Positions 9,703 to 61,350 of a stretch of 64,000 nt of DNA are shown here, in pieces. Source of the stretch: Pegea sp. RAD2-039 (taxonomy: Eukaryota > Chordata > Thaliacea > Salpida > Salpidae); NCBI GenBank assembly GCA_034620365.1, contig JAQGEQ010000023.1:461574-525573 (forward strand), written 5' to 3'. The first letter of the stretch is position 1. Every line of letters begins with the position of its first letter. Both the position numbers and the translations under genes were made by a program. Under the pieces are notes generated by a model, which saw nothing but the letters and a program-made list of their open reading frames with translations, had not been told where the DNA came from and made no database searches.

Positions 9703-12700
9703 ATGAGCTCAGAGGTAAGTACTTTAAATTGATTACTTTATCTTAGAAAGCTTAAAAGATGTTCACATAACTGAGCTAGTGTTAGTTGTATGTTTGCCAC
9801 TAGACTATTAGTAACATCAATCAAATCTGTACAGATTCAAAAATATAAATGTTTGTTTTATTTATTTACAGCAACCAGCGTGGATGAAGGAGCTAGCTGC
9901 TCTACGTCGTAATAGTGCTCTAAACGATGCCACTAAGTCAAATCCATGGCAGAATAAAGGAAATCAACAAACAACTAATCAAAGAAGCAGTCTTCTATCA
10001 AGAAATAAGTTTACTTCATCAAGTCCAGGTATAAACGAAAGAAAAGAAAATCAAGATACTGGAAAATCGTTAGCTGAAACATTAAGAGAAAGATTAGATG
10101 AAAGAAAAACAAGAGAGGCTCTCGAAAACCACACAGAGGAGTCTAATAGTAGTTCAAAGAAAAATATGGAATGCAAGGATGACGTTTGCCAACAGCAACA
10201 AGTTTCTAACTTTATGAGAGAAGGTAGTCGTGTTGGAAACAAAACAAATTCTGTTAAGTTTGATCAATCAAAGAAAAATGATCCTGTGAAACCAAACTCA
10301 TGGCTTCACAGTGCAAAGATTAAAGAAAAAAATTCAAATATTTCAACTTCAAATTCTCTCAATAAATCTTCTAGCATGCAAAATCATCAAAGTATTCGTT
10401 TTTACATTTTTTATTACTCATATTAGAATGATATTTAATTATGCTGATCTATCATTCATCATTTCCTCAAGCTTTCATATTATTATTTGTATAGCTTGAA
10501 TAAACAACTACAGAGATATTCATTTACTCTTTAAAAAGATTTTTAGAGTTTATTTTAATGATTTAAAACTCTTCGCGAATTAAACATAATAATTTTATGA
10601 TATTTTAATGTTTAAATTTTCTTTCGTTTTAATTCTCTTCTAATTATCTGCTTCATATATCACGATTGTTGTACAAATTTATTAAAACCACCATTGTGTA
10701 AAATTAAGTTTAAAAATCATAAAATCTAGATTGAAAAATAATTTATTTTTTCATTTAAATTTTGTTGTTAAAAATTTAGTTTTTAAACAAATTAGCTTTA
10801 ATGAATTTTTAAAATAAGTTTCGTCATCTTATAATGTTGTTCACAGAAAATCTTCCTCCGCCACCGAGCTTCGTTGTCAACTCAGATTCTTCCCAAGCCT
10901 ATTCTTCGGATACTTATTTGACATCTTACCAACCACAAGAGGTATTTCCAATACCTCCTAAGCCACCAATGAGTGCTTTACCATCAAAAAAACCCCAATT
11001 TTACAAAACATCTTCTTCAAATCAAATCCAATCATCAAAAATTGAACCCAGATCTTCATTGCCTAATATACAATCACCTAAAAATATATTTTCGGCTCCA
11101 ACTGTCGAAAATTCATTTCCTGGACCTCCTTTACCATCGAAACCACTTCCTGATCCACCTCTATCATCTATCCCCTTACCTGGACCACCCTTGCCATCCA
11201 AACCATTTTCTGGACCACCCTTACCGTCCAAACCATTTCCTGGACCATCTATTCAATCAAAACCACTTCCTGAACCACCATTACCATCCAAACCATTTTC
11301 TGGACCACCCTTACCGTCCAAACCATTTCCTGGACCATCTATTCAATCAAAACCACTTCCTGAACCACCATTATCATCCAAACCATTTTCTGGACCACCC
11401 TTACCGTCCAAACCACTTCCTGGACCATCTATTCAATCAAAACCACTTCCTGATCCACCATTACCATCCAAACCACTTCCTGAACCACCCTTACCATCCA
11501 AACCATTTTCTGGACCACCCTTACCGTCCAAACCATTTCCTGGACCATCTATTCAATCAAAACCACTTCCTGATCCACCATTATCATCCAAACCATTTTC
11601 TGGACCACCTTTGCCGTCCAAACCATTTCCTGGACCACCTTTGCCGTCCAAACCATTTCCTGGACCATCTATTCAATCCAAACCACTTCCTGAACCACCA
11701 CTACCATCCAAACCATTTTCTGAACCACCATTACCATCCAAACCATTTTTTGAACCACCTTTGCCGTCCAAACCTCTACTTGAGCCCTCTAAAACATTCC
11801 CAGAACCTCCTTTAGCATCCCCACCACTCTCTGGTCCTTCTTTATCATCTAAACCAGAATCACCAGTTCCTTCTAGGACATCTTTTCTGTATAGAACAGC
11901 AAAAACAGGTTTGTAACTTCCTATTTATTTTGATTTCTAATAACCGATATTTTAGGTGAACCAAGAAGAAAGTCAATTCCACAAGATATTCTCCAACGTC
12001 CAAAACCTGCTAAGCCGGTCAAACCTGCGATCATAAAAGGTCTTATGGAAACTAATTATTTAGTTTTGATTTCTAAAGCAAGCAAAACTTCAAAATTTCC
12101 GAGAAAAGTTTTTTGAAAAGTCTTAACGTCAGCAGTTTTATGAAAACTTGATTATTTGTAGGAAAAAATCTTCACTATGCCAGGAAATCGTTACCAGCTT
12201 TACCTGAAAATGGTAACTAAACACCTAAATAATAATATTTGATAATAAGTTGCTTAAAAAAGTTTTTATTTATCTATTTTTAAATAGTTTTATAATCTGT
12301 AAAACAATTTTCAGTGCCTTCAATACAATCATCACAAAATATGATGTAAGTACATCCACAACAGACAAAGATCTTTTCAGTGAACTACCAGATGTTTGTC
12401 GTCGGCTTTAAAAGTAACAAGATTGTTTAGAGATACTTGGGATGATGAGGAAGCCCCTGATGTTATTTATCAAGACACAGATAATCCTGATCCTGCACCT
12501 ATTCTTCCACAAAGACCACTGACTCTTCCACCAAGAAGACCTTCCATTACAGGTTGCCGGAAAACTTACTTATTGTTTCTAAACTTTATCTAATATTGCT
12601 TACTAGAGCCAGATAATGTATACTTAGACACCGAAGCAATACCTCCGGAACCGGCACCTGCATCTGTTCTTGCATTTGCTCCTAAACTAAAGTTTAGTTT

Positions 12701-23300: not shown

Positions 23301-25861
23301 CTAATCTGAAAATATATTTTCGATTTGTTCAGTAGTTTATAAATGAAAATTAAAAAACCATTATGAGTTTACATTTCGTTTTCTTTAATGTTTTAAAGCT
23401 TGAATTATCACTTAATGGAAATACATAAATGAAAGATTATGAACAATTTTTTCTATAATTTACCAATAAATAACAGTTAAGCTGGATAAATTTTGGATTT
23501 ATTGAGACATCATCCTAATATAAAGATACTAAGATACTCAGATAAAACCGTTTTAATGAGATCTCATTACAATTGTAATATATCACACTAATGCCATTTT
23601 GTGAAAACTTTTGAACGCATGGAAAAAAATACAAATATTTTCGAATTATATAAATCTTCAAAATATTTCATGAACTATTGAGAATCAAAAATGTTATTTC
23701 TTACAGAGTTACCTGAATTTAAAAATGAATTTGAAAAGTAAAATTTCTTTTAATTGTGAGTCATTTTCTATCGACAAAATTATGAATGAAGAAAACTTTG
23801 CAAAGCAATGAATAGAGGAAGTACAATTATCATTTCTTCATATTTAGTCTAAAATATACTTGATAATTTGCCACTTAATTCTGCATATGTTTCCGATTGT
23901 ACCCTATACCGGTTATGCTATTATATAAACGATATAAGAAGTAGATTGGTCAATCAGATGATAAGGTATCAATTTTTCTCAGTCTTATAAAAATCCCGGT
24001 ACGGCATTGTTGGAAAAATCTTAGAAATAAAGAATATCTTCTTCATCATTTTGACTCAAACTTATTCGATGTCTATGTATATATTATTCACTGGTAGGTT
24101 AATATTTCAAACTATTTTAAAGTAAATAGGTTAAAACACAAAGTACTTCAAAAAGTTTTTAGCTTTTATCTTTATTTTGATATAAAATTTTCTTTTGTTG
24201 TTTTTAAATCTTTTTCTTTTCATTAAACAGCTAACCATTTGTAGTTCGAAATATTGACTTACTTTGTTCAATCTATTTTATAGAATTTGCTAAATTTTTA
24301 TTATTTTTGTAATGACAAAAACAAAATACTATTATAAAACTTTATAAGTTACAAAATAAACCGAAAAAAAATGTTTTATAAACGACAAATATCCATCTTT
24401 TCAAAATCAATGAAATAAAAACAAAATAATGTTAATTAAAAGCTAAAAGTAAACAATGATTTGAAACTGAAAAGAAAAAGGCGAACTTAACGATAAAAAG
24501 TGAAAGTTTTATGATATAGAGGAGTTTTTATATTGCAAAAATGTATATAATATATTGAATTATATTTATTTTTATAACATAGTTTTTATTACTAGTGATT
24601 CTAATTCTGTTGAACTTTTTGTAAATTTTGCAAAAAATTAACTTTACCCGACTTTTATTCGGATAAAATAAATCTATTTGATAAAATATTTTAATGAAAT
24701 GAACTTTATCTCCCCTTAATTATATTCGAAGATATCTATTTCGTCGAATAACTTTTTATTAAAAATTCTACAAAGTTCGTTTATGAAACATTTTTCAACA
24801 TCATTTATTAGTAAATTTCTATCTTTCAAATATTTCTAGTTTTTTAATGCTTAATCTCTATAAGCAATGAATTGTAATATTTCAAGAATTCTTCTATAGT
24901 CAATCACAAGGGGTTAAGTCTTTCATGCGTAGCTTTAACTAACAGAAAAAGCTTCTCACCACACCTATAAGCTATGGATCTATTAATAATAATGACAGAT
25001 AAAAACGAAAAAAAACTGTTACATTTGAAATTACCTCAATTGTTACAAAGCATTGTCTTATTAAAACTTCAAAGAAAAACTTCTTTTATTAATTTTATTT
25101 ATGCAGTTTACCTATATGCTTTTAATAGAAAAAATTAGATTAAAATTTTTTGGTAGAATTAACTTAGAATTTATTTAATTTTAAAAAAGTATAATAAAGC
25201 AATAATTTCCATCAATTTCTTAAATATTGTTACTTTTACTAACATATTAGTTATTGTTTAAACTAAAGCTTATTAATATGCCTTTAAAACTGAAAAATAA
25301 TTGTTTAAAATGTTTAAAAATTTTCAAAACTGTACTAATAATTAACAGATAATTAATTTCAGTTTATTAACTAACTAAATTTTATAGTATATTTATCTTT
25401 ACATCACAAATTGAAAAGGTTATTTTTGGTTTTTACTTAATCATTTTAACTTTAATAAGCTAATAACTAAATCATAAGAAGCTAAATTGGCTTACAAATT
25501 CCAAAGATATGAGATAAACAATTCTTTTATTTATCTTTTAGCAGCAATATCTACAGCCTAACCACAAGGGCCTTTTGGTTTTTAAATCCAATTTAATTAT
25601 TCTCCAAAGTTAAAAACTTAATAATATTGCCTGTTCGAATCTGGCCTCTGTCTTTTCTCCTTTTCTATATCCTTGCCGGTTAAGTCTTACACCTTCTTAA
25701 CAGAACAAAGCCTCTCTCCATTACTTCGGGCAAATCTTTTTTCTTCTGTTTTCTCCACGTCATAAGGTTGATTATAAAAGAAAATACTTTTATCAAGGGC
25801 GATGTCTTTTTGTATTTCTAGTTTTCGGGTTCATTTCTTCAGGCAGAGGAAAAGTTAAAAG
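20394..25861. other. Intergenic, 5.5 kb, no gene recognised
   Basis: Low-complexity A/T-rich DNA. The 133-codon frame at 20338-20739 overlaps the end of THG1 and is rich in Phe, Leu and Lys from A/T bias. It is not considered real. A tRNA B-box-like GTTCGAATC at 25633-25641 lacks an A-box or cloverleaf. The final 300 bp are pyrimidine-rich and G+C-richer, probably the promoter and leader of the first secreted peptide gene. A TTTCTTCAG acceptor there ends at 25841. Confidence 0.6.
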
Positions 25862-26460
25862 ATGCTTGCTCATAACAATATTCGTTTGATGATTGTTGCT
25901 ATGGTTACTCTTTTCTGTCTTGAAATGATTTGTGAAGGCAAAAGTTTACACCACGCCAGGTAAGAAACCATCGTTTTTTTTTTTGCATTTAATTTTTTTT
26001 ATAATTTTTTTTACTCAGAAATAAACGTTCTCGCGGAAACGGAAATGCAAATCAAGTTCTTCTCAACTACCAGCTTGAATCTCTTGGATCAGGAGCCACT
26101 GATGCACGATTAGTTGGTTCTCATGGAAACGCAGATTCTATTTCAAAGGTGATAAGTGAGATACACGGAGAAGGAGCTACTAAAAGTGTCTTACCTGGTG
26201 AAGGAGCAGCTGATCTTACTGATTCTAAAATCGATGCTGGAAAAAGCTCTCTAGCCACATTTAAACTTGACTCACCAAACAACAGTTATGAAACTTCTAT
26301 TACTTTCGGCTTTCCAATCAAAACTAAAGCTTACCTAACTGAGCTTCAAAAGCGATTGATTTATAGAAAGACTGTTGAACTTTGTCGAATGATTCGTCAC
26401 AAGCTTAGTAGAAGTATGAACCTTCAAATTGAATGTGATTTCCCGGGAAAACACTTTTAA
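25862..26460 (+). CDS. Secreted preproprotein 1, two-cysteine family (unrecognised)
   Basis: Two exons (25862-25959 and 26019-26460) join through a split Arg codon (AG|A) to give 179 residues. Residues 1-26 form a signal peptide with a hydrophobic core. The join gives GKSLHHAR-NKRSRG, with a dibasic KR at 35-36 next to the intron. A Gly-rich stretch with repeated GEGA motifs follows. The C-terminal domain holds the only two mature cysteines, C155 and C172, in CRMIRHKLSR..NLQIEC. The ATG follows TTTCTTCAG by about 20 nt, and AATAAA lies at 26550-26555. The intron position, basic site and Cys motif match the gene at 30582, so the two are paralogs. A secreted prohormone or other small secreted factor is likely, but I do not recognise the family. 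Confidence 0.85.
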
Positions 26461-29400
26461 AATTTATTGACGTTGTTGGTTATTAAGATTCTAATTTTTC
26501 GCACTCACTCACAAAAAAAATACAAATTAAAACTTACTTAGAATCGTACAATAAAGCCATTATAATTAAAATGTGAGCATTTTGTTTGCTTCAATAATTT
26601 TATGCTACAAAATGTTGCTTTAGCTTTATTGCCGTCTTGATAATAATCGTATTAAAATTATTTGGTTGTTGGCTAAACTTATGTTTTGTACAAAAGCTTT
26701 TATGTAATTTTTTGATGAACAGCCAAATTAAAAGTTCAATTTTATTTATTTTTCTTATTTTCATGTTTATTTATTTTGTACTGTCTTATACTAGACTTAT
26801 AAATTTGTTTCATAAACTCTGTTTTATCAACATCTCTTTTGCTTGCCGCTATAATTTTTCCCCTAAAATAGCTTTCGTTATTTTTATTTTTAAATAAACT
26901 TTACAGTTGTACTTGATTGTACTTTTAGTTGTAAATTATTATTTTAAGTTCAAAAAGGTTTGCAGTTAAGTTCAGTTTAGTTTTTTAGTTAAGAAATTGA
27001 AAATATAAATTTAGTTTAAGACTTAATGAACTTTTACAAAAGTAACTTTAATTGTTAAGTAAATGTTTGCTGTAAGAAAAGTTTAAAGTTTCTTTATGCT
27101 TTCTATTTATATAGACACGATTCTTAAATAAACAAGTTCCTTTTATTATTTAAACAAGTTTGATTTTGATCACGTTTAAGTTAAAACAATTTTATTAGTT
27201 AAATGTTATATTAAAAAATCAAATTATAAACACAAAAATATTTTGATCTATATAAGTAGTTTGAAACGAAACAATCAATTAGTTAAATAAATAAAATATA
27301 TAAACAAACTGCAATAATAACTATAAATTAAGTACCTAAGAAAAATTTAAAAACTACTTTTTAAAAAGAAAATAGTCAAAAGCTTTCATAAAATTTGTAT
27401 ATTTATAAAGTGTTTACATTAACATTAAAGCTAATTTTATTAAAATATATATTCATATTAAATTATTTGCAATTTCAACTCTATTTTAGGTTTATTTACA
27501 GAAAATTAACTTCTGAAATATTTTTGATAAAACTGTTTGAATAAATAGTAAATAAATAACTAAATAAGAATTATAAATCTTCTTTCAAAGCAAGCGCAGG
27601 TTTTTACATGTCGCCTATGTAAATCAGTTTTATGTAAATAGAAATTGTGTTTGTTTATAAATCAAAAACTTGAGTATTCACATCGACTTGCTGTAACATT
27701 TACATTCAATATTTACTTTAATTATCTCATTTCATTTTAGAAATAATTAATCACTTTATAAAGTAAAAAAAAATATTTTCTAAATTCACCTCATTGATAA
27801 GCCAACCATCTTGACAAGATGAAAGATTAAAAACATATTTTATATCAAAAACTTTATATTTACATCGGGATCGTGTCATATTTAGTATTTTTAAGTACTG
27901 TACTGTAATCGCTTGATTACTTTTAATACAGTTATAAAGTATTAACTTTTTTTGGTAATTTATTTAATTACGTTGCATAAATACTTAAACTAAACAAGCA
28001 GTTAATAAAGTTAGATATATATTTTTCACTTAATAGTACATATATTTGTAAAAATGAACTAAATTGATAATATTTCAATATTCTTGATGATTGTACAAAG
28101 AAATTTGCCTTCTAAATATTAATTTAACTATGTTATAATACTGAATTTTAATTTCTGTTTTACAACTATTTTAAAGGTTTGCATTTATCTAAAAGTTATC
28201 TTATTGAAGACTTTAGCTTAATTAAAATAGCGATTAGAGTTATTGATAGCTTAGCTGGTAGTAGTAATGGGTACTAACTTCATGAATGAAAGTTTGAATT
28301 TTCAAAATCACCACAAATATTTATTGAAATAAGATATCATTAGTAACAATTTACAAATTGATTTAAGTTTAGCAAAATACTTGGTAATTTTATTTTTTAA
28401 TTTATTAAGAGCGTTACATAAGCCTGTCTTGAGACTTCCTGTTATGATACTTTTCTCATTGGTAAACGATCTGATTTACATTTAACATCGTATCATAATC
28501 ATATTACTAAACATTAACAAAAATAAAGCTTCTAGGTATTATGAAACGCGCTATTTTAAAAACAAGTTTTCAGCAACTTGAAACACTAAACATAAAGTTT
28601 GTTTATAATACCCAAAACCCTTGCTTTCAAGTTTATTTGAAAAAATTTTAAAAACTTTAAATAGTTTTGCTGATTAACTAATTATGCAGATACTTATTTG
28701 GTTAGCTTATAAGGCTTTTGCAATTATTTTAAATGTATTCGTCTAAAAATATGAGAGAAACTTTAAGTTGTTGTATTAGCTCAAATCCTAAGTAGAACAA
28801 AACGAATTAAATATAAAACCACTCGAGGTGGTTTAGCATCTTGAATTGTAAATCTCTTCGACCAACACACCAGGCCAATACTGTTTACTTTTCATTTTAT
28901 TTTATTATATATTTTAAATGTGCAAATAATTAAATAAACTGTTTTTTTTTCTTGGAAACTTTTGAAAGAAATATCTTATTAAACAATTTTCTTAAAGTTT
29001 ATTTAAATAAATTGAATTTAAAAATCACCAACTAAATGTATTTATTTAGTTTAAAGATTATCAGTCCTATAAAAATTAAAATTGAAATAGTTTTAACACA
29101 AATTGATAAACTATTAAACAAATTCAACACAACTTGTTAAAGCAAAAAGAAGTAGGTGACATTTTCTTCAAATTAGTATAAAATCAAAGTTTATATTTTT
29201 CAAAACAATCAATTTTAAGATTATTAGAGAGAAATTTTTTCCTAAAAAGATAAAAAAGTATTCAAACAGTTTAGATATGATGTATGCTAAAAAAATAAAT
29301 TATATAGTAATATTTGTCTGTCATTTATTGTTAAAAGTAATTTCTTTTAGTTTTTACTTACTACAAAAAATATTAGCCAATGAAAAAACTTAATTTATTT

Positions 29401-30581
29401 GTGAATAAAATAATATATTTTAAAATAAGTTTAAAAAACTTTTTTGAAATTACAAATACTTTATACTTCTAATATGAAATTGAACAGAATATAACATCAA
29501 CATAGATAATTTTAGTTATATAACATCCATATATTTGTAAAATGCAAGCATGTAATCAGACATTTAATGTCAGGTAAAAATTTACCTATCTCAACCACAT
29601 ATCCAAATTATTTTTGTTGCAGAATAATACTTAGTTCTTATCTTCCAGGATTTTAAATGATCGCTTGAAGGAAACGATCATTACTTCATTTCCGATTACG
29701 GATAATAGTTTTCTGATTTTAACCAATTTGAGATCTTTATCAAACTAATTATTAGTTTTTCAGAACCATTTTAGTCTTCATTATATAAAGAGTTAATTGT
29801 AATGATGTAATCTAGAAATTACATTTGAAAAATTAACTGTTAATCAGTTTTTATCAGTTTCTTGAGTCTAATTTACTTACTACTAAAATGACAGTAAAAA
29901 CATCTCGATTTAAACCATATAAATCTTTTGTGATAAACAATATCAAAAACTAAAGACAATAAGATTACAAAGCAAACATTATAAGCCGTCTCAAGGAACA
30001 ATCAGAGATATTATAAAGCAAAATTCTTGATAAACGCATTAAAGGATGTTATCAAATAAAACATGTACGTAACATTGGTTCTGAACGAAATTAAATTCTC
30101 ATTTAAACGATTAGTAATTTCTGAATTGAAGCTTTTAGTGTCACAACATTTTGGTTGTAGATCTCTTTATGATTTAGAACTAAATTACCATATAGTTAAT
30201 CTATCTGACGTATTTCAGAGTGTAATCAGTGTTTTTTTAACAAGTCTTAAAAAGAATAATATAAAGCAGTAATAGATGTAAATGTAATTAAAAAAACAAA
30301 AAAGAGTTAAACCTTAAATCAGATTTAACACTTAATACCATTTTAACGTGATTTTATTAAAGCAAGGATTTTAGCAACAAGGGTTTCATGTGTTTGATAT
30401 GATTGAGAGAAATTAAATTTTTTCACAAACTGCAACAACAACAACCTCTAGTGATATATCTGAAGGCTTTTTTCACTCGAAAGTATCGGATATAAAATGA
30501 GATGAATCGCCTCAAAATGCACTAAGTGAAGAAATAGCCCAAAATTTCTTAAAGTGTTTCAAGCCTTTTATAACAACGATA
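26461..30581. other. Intergenic spacer between the two secreted peptide genes
   Basis: About 4.1 kb of A/T-rich DNA holding no third copy that I can see. The 86-codon frame at 26637-26897 is low-complexity 3' flank. A hairpin AAACCAC-TCGAG-GTGGTTT lies at 28816-28834. An 8-bp hairpin (AATGATCG/CGATCATT) lies near 29656-29682. The frame at 30063-30272 has no recognisable motif. Confidence 0.6.
28816..28834. repeat. Short perfect hairpin, 7-bp stem, 5-nt loop
   Basis: Arms AAACCAC and GTGGTTT flank the loop TCGAG. The stem has three G-C pairs in otherwise A/T-rich spacer. It does not match the histone 3' stem-loop. Function unknown. Confidence 0.7.
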
Positions 30582-31079
30582 ATGAGTATTCAATATTCGA
30601 TCTTCATCATCTTCTTCATCTCTATGATCATTTGCAGTACAAATGGAAAGAGTCTTTCCAGGTAAGACAAACGTTGCTTCAAAGTTTTGTTTATTTATTT
30701 AATCAATTTTCTGATCAGACGTAAACGAACTCCCGAAGCTGAATTAGATAGAGTAAGACGACATCAGATGAATCAATACGTTCGGATTTTGATCAGAAAA
30801 GAGGAAGAAGCTAAACCTGAAATCATAACAGACCCAAACTTTTCCGAAGTTGGTAATCGAATGGAACCTGGTCCAAGACCAAGACATATACCCGGCTTAG
30901 TCCCTACCTTAGTATACGGGGAGCCAGTTCCTTTTGGCTTGGCTGGCTTCAATGATAGAGCTGCAATTGAAGAAAAATTAATTAGATTTTGTATTCGGTT
31001 AAAAGCAAAACTGAGAAGAGTGGCTGGTAATGTAGAGGTTACTTGTTCTACTTATGCTTTATCAAAAGGTCCCGCTTAG
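30582..31079 (+). CDS. Secreted preproprotein 2, two-cysteine family (unrecognised)
   Basis: Two exons (30582-30661 and 30719-31079) join through a split Arg codon (AG|A) to give 146 residues. A signal peptide covers about residues 1-22 (long Ile/Phe core). The join reads GKSLSR-RKRTPEAE, giving a tribasic RKR at 28-30, a probable convertase site. Next is a charged helix-like region (residues about 31-60) and a Pro/Gly-rich linker. The C-terminal motif FCIRLKAKLRR..NVEVTC carries the only mature cysteines, C118 and C136. The same gene layout and motif occur in the gene at 25862. AATAAA lies at 31317-31322. No strong acceptor was seen just before the ATG. Peptide hormone, growth factor-like or defence roles are all possible, and none is shown by the sequence. 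Confidence 0.85.
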
Positions 31080-33372
31080 CAAGGACTTTTGGTTTAATTC
31101 TAAATATAAATATTTAAGTGAAACGCATCTGAATTTAAAATGCAAGTTGTCGCCATAAAAAGTTGTTTGTACTTTCTTATTGTTTGGCTTTTAGGTGCAG
31201 TTATTTTTTTAATTTAATCTAATTGAATAAGTTATATATGACTGAAACTGTTTATTATTTATCCTTTTTAACTGCTTCATTTTTGGCACTATTGCTACTG
31301 TTGCATTTCGTAAAAAAATAAAACTATAAAAAAACTGAAATTATATTTGGTGTTTTATTTTTAATAGAAACCATTTGACAAATTAAAACTTTATAAAACC
31401 CAGCATGGATACACCATCATTAAACTATGCTTGTGTTAAGGTGTCTCATTAGATATCACAAATGGATTTGAAAAAGTGAAAACCTATCAACTTAGTTGTA
31501 AAACATTTGATAAGTTTTTTAAATGGTGTGTGCTGATTATCAAATGTAAACTGCTTCAAATGTTTTATTGTGATTTAAGTTTTGAATTTACTTTATTTTT
31601 CTTTATAGCAAGCTTTTAAAAGTTTTTAACTAATCGCAATTAAATATAAGAATCAGTTTTTGTTAGCAGCTTGAATTACCTTAGACAAAGTGTTATGTAT
31701 TTGATGCAAAGAAACACAAGAGTAACTTTAATAATTTTGGACTTAATATATTATAAGCATAAGCTTGAAAGCATATCTTATGGCCATTAAAACCCTGGTA
31801 TCAAAGTATCTTAATGATAATCAAGTTTTCTTCTAACAGATTGGTGTTTATTGAAATACTGACATGAGATTTTATCAAAAAGATCTTAGCAAATATACTT
31901 TTTAGATCAGATAAACGTTGATGTCGCTAATGATATTGCCATTAGGATGTCAATCAAAAGGTCATTTCAACGATAATATCAAAATTATGTTTCTTATTAT
32001 AGTTGCAATTCAAAAAACACACCTTTAAAAAATCCTAGGTTGTTTTTACAATATTTTTTTATTATTGATTTCTAATATTACTGAATTTTGAAGCTTGATG
32101 AAAAGTTTACAATCTTTGATAATAACTGTCCAAGTTCATTACTTGATTTTAACTTGCAAATTGATAAAAACTTACCAAATAAAAGTAATTTTCTTTTCTA
32201 TATGATGAACTTACACAGTTACTTCTTCTTTAATCAGGAATTTTTATTTGATTTATAACTGATAATAAATATAATTTATAAAAGTATTTTTTAATTCAAC
32301 TCCAACAAACACTTTAGTTAAAACCTCCAACCCAAAAATGAAATCTTCAAAGAACTTTCAGATTACAAAAGAGACTTCAAAAATTTGATAAAATCTACTT
32401 AAAGATCAGCCTAAGATTTGAAAATAGATCTAAAAATAGGTTGCTGAAGTCACTAGTAATCAGAGAATTTAGTTGCTACATCAGATTTCATGTACATCAA
32501 ATAAATGTTTGCTGTTTTTCGATTACTTTTGTTCACATAAGCTCGAGTACAAAATCTACGTTGACCATGTAACTTGACGCACGTCTTAATCGATTGAGAA
32601 ATTATTATTTTCCGTTGATAACTTTGATTGCGTCACTAAACGTAGTTATGAGCTAAATTGTTGGTTAGTTTCAAAAAGTTTTAATGATTTTTACACTTGG
32701 TTATTCGTCAAAAACAGTTTTATTGCTTTAAACCAAATGTCTTTTAATACATGCTAAAAATGAAATACAGATTATTTAAAAAATATAAAAAGTGTTTCAG
32801 GATAATCAATTTTGAGGTTTAGTAAATCTATTATATCTTCACAAAATAAAATCAAGTTTAGTTTACAAAACTTTAAATACTTTCTTAAGACTTTAAATAA
32901 TATTGATTAAGTAGCAACAGTTCAAAGATTACTTTTCTTGTGTTAGATTGGTAAACATATTTTTTATTTATCTGAATGATTTAAAGCGATTTATGGTTAC
33001 ACTAAAAAGTTTCATCATTATTGTTCAGATTTCAAGTCTTTTAAAATAAATTAGAAGAATGATATAAGTTGTGAAAACTAAAATTATTATGGTTTTACTC
33101 AAAAACTTTTTTTATACTAATATTTTCTATCAAAGTTGATACCTGAATCTTTTTAGGCAACAATTATATAAGAAAAACACCCTAAGCTAATAAAAAACAA
33201 TTTTTGCAAAGTTTAACAATTGCAATAAATGCAGCAAAATCTATTTTATAATAAATTTGATTTTATAAAGATGTTATTGTGTACTACAACTAATGAATAG
33301 TACTGTTGTAGTTTTAAACATTTCTGTAAAATTTGCCTGATAAACTCTTATATCTAATACACAACAAAGCCA

Positions 33373-49069: not shown

Positions 49070-49311
49070 TAATCCAACTAGTTTTGGTTAATATTTTAAA
49101 TCAAATTTTTATCTAACTTTATATATATGCTAATAAGGGATTTAAACTAAGTTACAAGCATTAAAAATCAAATCTTTATCACGTGGCTTTCAAACTATTG
49201 GCTTAATTATTTTAGATTTAAAAAGTTTAAAATTGTGACGTAACAATATACAACTAAAACTCTAAAGATCATAAAATATAGTTTATTAATTTTAGTGCTG
49301 CAAGCAGCAAC

Positions 49312-49746
49312 ATGTTTACATTCAATTTCTTGAAGTTTTTTTTAGGTATTTTGATGTTAGCATGCCTTATGCCACAAATAAAGGGCGAAGAATGTACATC
49401 AAGAATAAACTGTTCAGACTCGGGGGTTGGTACATGCTGCCATGGTGGATATTGCTGTTTAGAGAATTCTTCTTCCAACTGTAGTTCTGTTTGTCAAGAT
49501 CAGCTTATTTGTTGCCCTAGTGGAAGTTGCTGCAGTATAAAATCTGTGGATAATACGAATAGAATAATTACCAATTTGCAACGATTTATTTTCTTTCTTT
49601 TTCTGGTTGTTGGTGGAGTAATGTTCTTTATCTACATCGTCTATAAATATTGTAAAAATGACAAACTGTTACACACAAAAAGTTCTCCTTCTGATCCTAT
49701 CATTGATGGTGCAAGAAAATTAAGTAAAGGATACCATGAGCTCTGA
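49312..49746 (+). CDS. Cysteine-rich single-pass membrane protein
   Basis: A single-exon gene of 144 residues. A signal peptide covers about 1-25. The short ectodomain (28-74) holds twelve cysteines, including four CC pairs arranged as two copies of CC-x4-CC (CCHGGYCC and CCPSGSCC). It also has possible N-glycosylation sites (NCS, NSS). A transmembrane helix spans about 92-111, followed by a 33-residue cytosolic tail with Ser/Pro. The CC spacing recalls granulin half-repeats and CYYR1/shisa-type small receptors, but no family is certain. The ATG lies 17 nt after a TTAATTTTAG acceptor (49294-49295), which supports this start. Function unknown. Confidence 0.75.
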   Translation: MFTFNFLKFFLGILMLACLMPQIKGEECTSRINCSDSGVGTCCHGGYCCLENSSSNCSSVCQDQLICCPSGSCCSIKSVDNTNRIITNLQRFIFFLFLVVGGVMFFIYIVYKYCKNDKLLHTKSSPSDPIIDGARKLSKGYHEL

Positions 49747-56470: not shown

Positions 56471-56962
56471 TTTTATTTATTTATTACAATAAATGCAAAA
56501 GAGGGTGCCTGAAAAGAAGCACCTCTCGCTAACACACATTCTCACAAATAGCATCCATTTAGTCAAAAATAGAAAGCAAAAGATGTAACACATGGCATTT
56601 CGGTAGCACTCAAAGCATATAACAGTGAACAATTACATAGAATTGTAATAATATTTAGAAAAAAAGTAACAGTTTAGAAATGACAATGTTGGCAATATTA
56701 TAACGGTTCAACTTCTTGAACAACGCGAGTGATTCTGATATAACAATGTCTGATGGCAGCTGGTTCCAAGTACTAATTGTGCGGTATGAGAAAAAATTCG
56801 CTCTGATCAATGTACCAGGTGATATGGGCTTATTAAGATGTAATATGTGTCGTCTGAGCTGATATAACTTGAGGGAAGGGCTAATGGAAAAGAAATCATC
56901 AAACTGAAGGTCAATTAAATTGTGGATAATTTTATAAAATAAGAATTTATTTTTGCTAAATG
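56471..56962 (-). mobile_element. Non-LTR retrotransposon 3' fragment (CR1/L2/Jockey-like), copy 1
   Basis: Read on the minus strand, about 100 codons stay open from near 56960 to the stop at 56656. They encode the tail typical of these reverse transcriptases: FFSYRTISTWNQLPSDIV followed by LALFKKLN. A 3' UTR and the terminal repeat CATTTATTGTAATAAATAAA follow (end at about 56471). The copy is 5'-truncated, as expected from target-primed insertion, and its open tail suggests it is fairly young. The same family occurs at 58130 and 60665. Confidence 0.85.
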
Positions 56963-57187
56963 TTTACAAAGATAATCTGAAGCAGTACTTACAAAACGTA
57001 ACAACCTTGTAAGTCAGTTGCTTTGCAAAAATATCCGATGAAAACTTTAGAAAATGAAAAAATCAAGAAATTAATTTAGGGTATGCAATCTATTGCCTTG
57101 ACATTATCTTTGCAACTCACATATTAGCTTTAGTTCTTTCTTTCTTTTAAATTTCAAAAAAGGAAGATAATTTTTGATGCACAATCT

Positions 57188-60664: not shown

Positions 60665-61350
60665 TTTTTAATTTTATTTTATTAAAAAAAAACGCCAATG
60701 AGGATGCCTGAAAAGAGCATCTCACCAACACACATTTACAAAAGCAATATTATATATATTAATACCTATATAATTAGGATACAAATATAGAAAAAAAAGA
60801 TGACATGGCAGCACAGTAGTCCCCATACACTATAACAGTGAGTAGTTGAACAGAATGTTAAATATATAAAAGGTAAAAAAGAATCAAATTCTAGAAATGA
60901 CAATGCTGGTATTATTGAAATGGTTCAATTTCTGCTTGAACAGAACGAGTGATTTTGATATGACACTGCCTTCGTTAAAATTAATTGAAATTGATATTCA
61001 TTTCAAGTAATTATTGTGCGGTATGGGAAAAAACTTTCTCTTATTAGCGTACCAGGTGATATGGGTTTACTAAGATGTTAAGGTCAATCAAATTGGGGAT
61101 AATTTTAGAAATAAGAATTAAATCGTATTTAATCCGTCGAATTTTTAAAGTATGTAAATTCAAGAAGCTAAGATGTTTATAACTATCGTATTTAATATTA
61201 AGTTTCCTGCATACCAATATCGTAAATGTTGCCTGAACAGATTCGATTTTTTTGATGTCACCAACTTGATATGGCATCCATGCACTGACAATGTATTCAA
61301 GAATTGAACGTACATACAATTTGAAAAGGTTGATAACGAAGTATGGATCT
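60665..61350 (-). mobile_element. Non-LTR retrotransposon fragment (CR1/L2/Jockey-like), copy 2
   Basis: On the minus strand the reverse-transcriptase C-terminal region is clear: LFKLYVRSILEYIVSAWMPY, then DIKKIESVQATFT and LNLHTLKIRRIKYDLI. This matches the common LINE pattern YVRPILEY..W.PY..DI..IE.VQR.FT. The reading frame breaks before the FFSYR region seen in copy 1. The nucleotide sequence around 60890-61085 aligns with 56660-56870. The 3' UTR GATGCCTGAAAAGAGCATCTC matches copy 1 but ends in a poly(A/T) tract in place of the ATTT repeat. The copy is 5'-truncated and decayed. Confidence 0.85.

Follow-up and report, generated by a model that had tools for sequence, protein, structure and literature searches.

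Precursor design of two neighboring genes in a salp genome

In a 64,000-nucleotide stretch of the genome of the salp Pegea sp. RAD2-039 (contig JAQGEQ010000023.1, positions 461,574 to 525,573; hereafter the window), two short genes, which we call A and B, lie on the same strand 4.1 kb apart. We propose, giving this reading about an even chance, that A and B are old tandem duplicates whose products, small secreted proproteins of a family that we did not recognize, would each be trimmed by a furin-like enzyme, closed by a disulfide and deployed as an extracellular ligand. The precise design shared by the two genes provides good evidence of a family invisible to similarity searches. If real and expressed, A and B would constitute a family of small secreted proteins that is overlooked by homology searches and becomes recognizable through gene architecture. 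This would be a useful pointer in the hunt for rapidly evolving secreted signals in tunicates, which are the sister group of vertebrates.

Both genes are predicted from sequence signals to consist of two exons. In A (25862-26460, + strand), exon 1 (25862..25959) encodes the signal peptide and the start of a propeptide, MLAHNNIRLMIVAMVTLFCLEMICEGKSLHHA, plus two bases of Arg33; it was called from its open reading frame, hydrophobic core and GTAAG donor site. A T-rich GT-AG intron of 59 bp in phase 2 (25960..26018) separates it from exon 2 (26019..26460), which carries the remainder of an RNKR furin-type site, a 143-residue mature protein and the stop codon, for a predicted spliced product of 179 amino acids. 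The layout recurs in B (30582-31079, + strand; 146 amino acids), where exon 1 (30582..30661) encodes MSIQYSIFIIFFISMIICSTNGKSLS plus two bases of Arg27, the phase-2 GT-AG intron measures 57 bp (30662..30718), and exon 2 (30719..31079) completes an RRKR furin-type site ahead of a 116-residue mature protein and the stop codon. B also has a second in-frame acceptor; its use would lengthen the intron to 90 bp and yield a 135-amino-acid form starting ...GKSLSRVRRHQ, in which RKR is skipped, possibly as a splice variant.

The second exons, each an open frame, have the codon usage of coding DNA. Their codon log-odds are 0.376 in A and 0.470 in B, compared with -0.314 on average in intergenic DNA, and composition shuffles reached these scores in 0 of 5000 and 1 of 5000 cases, respectively; the reference genes ELP3 and RPF1 score 0.31-0.32, though they are themselves part of the training genes. 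Guanine-cytosine (GC) content is 34-40% in the exons vs 22-24% in the flanks. A TATA box lies 89 bp upstream of the A start codon (25773..25779, + strand) and another 91 bp upstream of that of B (30491..30497, + strand); when the 120 bp upstream of each gene are compared, only the seven bases TATAAAA align. Candidate polyadenylation signals, AATAAA, follow each gene on the + strand at 26550..26555 and 31317..31322. The two-exon models of an earlier note on this DNA agree with both the splicing predictions and the exon 2 codon usage.

The likeness between A and B is centered on the junction of the two exons. Both phase-2 introns cut an Arg codon (AG|A), as the earlier note had reported, and the basic KR/RKR site that it placed right after the intron belongs to a furin-type R-x-K-R motif whose P4 residue is this very Arg (R33-N-K-R36 in A, R27-R-K-R30 in B). 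The common design is in fact sharper than first stated, as it extends to the split P4 Arg and to the nearly equal TATA-ATG distances. In both proteins a hydrophobic N-terminus of signal type precedes R-x-[KR]-R (RNKR in A, RRKR in B), the arrangement looked for in furin-processed secreted proproteins, and in both the furin-type site is preceded by GKSL. The signal peptide had been thought to end in GKSL. While GKSL is indeed present in both, the -3/-1 rule for signal-peptide cleavage makes it more likely that the signal ends at the Gly, and therefore that KSL opens a propeptide of 10 residues in A and 8 in B.

We scanned both strands of 164 kb, comprising the window and the 100 kb preceding it, for a hydrophobic exon 1 together with an intron no longer than ~800 bp and R-x-[KR]-R close to where the exons join. 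The scan returned three rows, namely A, B and B with the alternative acceptor, and no other locus. A narrower scan, in which introns were limited to ~130 bp, yielded six candidates, of which four are phase 2 and two phase 0; four of the six have a dibasic site near the junction, and these are A, B, the B alternative and one unconvincing structure on the minus strand.

Mature chains and predicted product

Each mature chain contains exactly two cysteines, at mature positions 119 and 136 in A and 88 and 106 in B, with 16 and 17 residues between them. The two-cysteine motif described in the earlier note matches both proteins exactly (CRMIRHKLSRSMNLQIEC in A, 26383..26436; CIRLKAKLRRVAGNVEVTC in B, 30990..31046; both + strand). 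In six frames of the 164 kb, the strict motif occurs in A and B only and in 0 of 10 randomized sequences; its loosest form has three further matches, compared with a mean of 0.2 and a maximum of 1 after randomization. Because the motif was derived from A and B, these scans show no more than that it is uncommon. The simplest reading of the paired cysteines is that they would form an intramolecular disulfide.

The likely conserved product had been taken to be a small disulfide-bonded C-terminal peptide, a suggestion that the distribution of dibasic sites does not support. A has dibasic sites upstream of the first mature cysteine (KR and RK, mature 108 and 113). B has none from mature residue 24 to the loop, and the next, RR at 96-97, falls inside the loop. 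A short peptide is thus unlikely to be the common product, since B lacks a dibasic site that would free it and has one within the loop itself. A better guess, based on these sites, is a furin-trimmed secreted protein of 143 (A) or 116 (B) residues with one disulfide.

In structure models of A and B, which are of low confidence, the longer elements are ordered helix-strand-helix-strand in both, with the first mature cysteine in the last helix and the second in the last strand. In the proposed mechanism, the signal peptide would be removed after Gly, leaving a propeptide of 8-10 residues starting KSL, and a furin-like convertase would cleave at R-x-K-R to release the whole mature chain. A single intramolecular disulfide would then tie the basic C-terminal helix to the short C-terminal strand. 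This helix-strand unit would be the conserved part of the protein, while the N-terminal and middle parts may have diverged freely. We anticipate that the protein would act extracellularly, most likely as a signaling or binding ligand, signaling being the least secure step of the model.

The properties of the C-terminal part also bear on another role, in which A and B would be antimicrobial or defense peptides whose active portion is the basic C-terminal helix, released or exposed by proteolysis like the ascidian hemocyte peptides. Tandem, rapidly diverging secreted proteins are typical of defense genes, and the C-terminal 46 residues of both proteins are basic, with a charge of +7 for A and +5 for B, and a helix is predicted there in each. 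The helical moments, however, are not clearly above those of shuffled sequences (reached by 470 of 3000 shuffles for A and 211 of 3000 for B), and while in A a KR immediately precedes the basic part of the helix, B is without a site for freeing it. In antimicrobial families it is usually the mature part that varies and the prepro part that is kept, whereas here the C-terminal part is among the better conserved parts. Ascidian helical antimicrobial peptides are on record, among them botryllin, which is produced as a pre-propeptide (PMC9966394), and the Ciona LCAMPs (PMC7387483). On balance, we consider a defense role for A and B unlikely.

The middle parts, Gly-rich in A and Pro-rich in B by eye, had been called completely diverged, which is fair; the sole hint otherwise is the common order of predicted elements, itself of low confidence. 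Such divergence, together with the adjacency of A and B and the failure to find relatives at other places in the genome, would suit structural, tunic, egg-coat or fertilization proteins that are secreted and evolve fast but do not signal. We hold this reading to be distinctly unlikely: no repeats were found in A or B, and a furin-type site close after the signal peptide combined with only two cysteines is more usual in hormones, growth factors and plasma proteins.

Relationship between A and B

A and B are very probably paralogues, as judged from their architecture, because their introns are alike in size and interrupt one and the same codon of the furin site in equal phase, their TATA-ATG distances are similar and they lie in tandem. 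Residue similarity is insufficient by itself to prove this. Local alignment scores of A and B were reached by 105 of 2000 shuffles over the full length, by 104 of 5000 for the mature chains and by 18 of 5000 for the C-terminal part, and global alignment scores by 157 of 5000 for the C-terminal part and 1 of 5000 for the N-terminal (prepro) part. At the DNA level, the comparison of exon 1 plus intron was equaled in 30 of 500 randomizations; we found no DNA similarity between the two genes in exon 2 or in the upstream or downstream regions. The earlier claim of a paralogous pair is therefore made likely by architecture and adjacency, while the residues alone offer no proof.

Several observations weigh against the two genes being duplicates that encode processed secreted proteins. 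Full-length BLASTP of A against B is non-significant (E=19), the global score of the C-terminal part is not significant when the cysteines are held fixed (327/6000), and for exon 2 DNA 493 of 500 randomized comparisons were equal or better. The architectural features that we rely on were picked after inspecting A and B themselves. For exon 1, codon usage gives weak scores of 0.19 in A and 0.07 in B, with 0.52 when B exon 1 is read in reverse complement, and the exon 1 calls consequently lean on the start codon, the hydrophobic core and donor site, and the TATA box further upstream. Finally, the structure models have a mean predicted local distance difference test (pLDDT) score of only 54.7 for A and 40.3 for B.

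The non-significant BLASTP result, the missing DNA similarity and the unlike middle parts are also what speaks for A and B being unrelated secreted genes with chance likenesses. Set against this are introns of identical phase that split the corresponding codon of one shared cleavage motif, similar size and promoter spacing, a location 4.1 kb apart on the same strand and the absence of a third case of the design in 164 kb, and we regard chance likeness as quite improbable. The two are probably a lineage-specific pair of secreted proproteins.

Searches for relatives and genomic setting

Searches of A and B against Pfam, NCBIfam and PDB sequences gave no usable match, and no relative was found in viral or bacterial/archaeal protein collections. 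The Pfam scan was run to E 10, with filters that remove most matches above 0.1; its sole match was DuffyBP_N for A (E 0.038), below the cut-off of that profile. Protein searches of the salp's own genome (105.7 Mb, 387 contigs) revealed no further member beyond A and B, although equally diverged members would escape detection, as A and B miss each other in this search at E<=10. The earlier note could not place the proteins in a known family, and this stands for all of these collections. Likewise, the region had been described as gene-poor for about 17 kb apart from the two genes at their 4.1 kb spacing, and no other gene was recognized in the surrounding 17-18 kb in a by-eye reading of the listed open frames, of which no Pfam scan was made.

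GC content across the 164 kb is 27%, lower than the 33-41% given for nine tunicate genomes in PMC5882950. Elsewhere in the window, an open frame at 10813-11916 contains 22 tandem copies of a 30-base unit (11114-11774) that encode a Pro-rich repeat (PLPSKPFPGP-like); the frame has no Pfam match and by eye resembles a WASP-interacting-type protein. A Cys-rich single-frame protein of 154 amino acids at 49282-49746 seems on inspection to have a signal peptide and a single transmembrane segment, and its only Pfam match is below threshold. Two minus-strand open frames (56655-56963 and 61044-61349) resemble by eye the ends of long interspersed nuclear element (LINE)-type reverse transcriptase frames and have no credible Pfam match. 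About 67.7 kb before the window, a cystine-knot protein is encoded at L009:2267-2707 (contig C101), with a Cys_knot match above cut-off (E 1.9e-5) and a sclerostin match below it (E 4e-4).

Two posterior Hox-like homeoboxes were observed 22 kb apart on opposite strands (C235:97051-119385) among the 12 homeodomain matches read of 71 in the genome. The first is Hox13-like, its best Hox chain in PDB being Hox-B13, above Abd-B. The second, whose best Hox chain is Hox-A9, we tentatively take to be Hox12-like from its resemblance to Hox12. In both PDB searches, the top row was an engrailed-derived two-domain chain with two matching stretches. The genome also has one GH6 match, barely over the cut-off (27.5 vs 27 bits), which would fit the cellulose synthase fusion of tunicates. 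In several tunicates Hox12 and Hox13 are described as linked (PMC7337526, PMC5882950). The linked Hox-like genes and the GH6 match make a tunicate likely from the sequence itself, and the low GC content speaks against one or for an unusual member of the group. A rotifer, first suggested by the AT-richness and short introns, was set aside, the bdelloid spliced leader being absent at up to one mismatch; an arthropod is disfavored by the lack of a Chitin_bind_4 cuticle domain in a search made without a positive control. The assembly gave no COX1 match.

Comparison with known secreted precursors

The precursor plan of A and B resembles that of the parathyroid hormone (PTH) family, comprising PTH, PTHrP and TIP39: a signal peptide, a short basic propeptide starting KS, an intron just 5' of a dibasic site and a following exon that holds the mature part. 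The codon that is split, P4 in A and B, may differ from that in PTH, where it would be P3. According to PMC4354418, elephant shark pth2 has its intron before KR and PTH-like peptides have been reported in tunicates. An intron directly preceding the site of prohormone cleavage is thereby a feature of the family; both A and B have such an intron, in phase 2 within the P4 Arg codon. We compared the two proteins with human PTH, PTHrP and TIP39 sequences. Shuffles reached the prepro score against PTH in 17 of 4000 cases for B and 123 of 4000 for A, and the score against PTHrP in 18 of 4000 for B and 2418 of 4000 for A. In local alignments of the mature parts, B (RRHQMNQYVRILI) matched TIP39 (RRHWLNSYMHKLL) at a level reached by 23 of 8000 shuffles, yet this comparison alone stands out among six, with A at 1206 of 8000 or more against all three hormones.

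The matched stretch of B starts after 9 mature residues vs 21 in TIP39, and the receptor-activating N-terminus would accordingly be missing. Nor does a receptor-binding 1-34 region directly follow the dibasic site, as seen in global comparisons that took the mature chain up to residue 34 in A or 36 in B: the best, B with TIP39, was reached by 55 of 4000 shuffles with gaps of 12 and 9, and the other five by at least 1021 of 4000. The Pfam Parathyroid profile (PF01279) has no match in A or B, and none in the genome in a search made without a positive control. PTH hormones are not known to have a C-terminal disulfide. Having failed on both the profile and the 1-34 region while sharing the intron position, membership of A and B in the PTH family appears very improbable.

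Similarly remote is the broader idea that A and B represent a novel chordate hormone family, or a far-diverged tunicate branch of PTH/TIP39 that gained a C-terminal disulfide unit and would supply a candidate ligand for PTH-type receptors. Such receptors are predicted in tunicates, with two in Ciona (PMC3483286). The data on A and B require no new kind of system.

Three known systems come closest to A and B. The PTH, PTHrP and TIP39 precursors share the plan set out above; the differences of A and B lie in a mismatched mature N-terminus, two C-terminal cysteines and the lack of a Pfam match. Ascidian antimicrobial precursors of the botryllin/styelin type and the Ciona LCAMPs are likewise small secreted precursors with a basic helix, but by description A and B differ in that their helix carries a C-terminal disulfide loop, is among the conserved parts and, in B, has no release site. 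Hormones with a single-disulfide C-terminal ring, such as natriuretic peptides, somatostatin and melanin-concentrating hormone, also have two cysteines near the C-terminus. Compared by eye, the ring residues of A and B look unlike those of these hormones; a helix is predicted within the loop, and B would free no short peptide.

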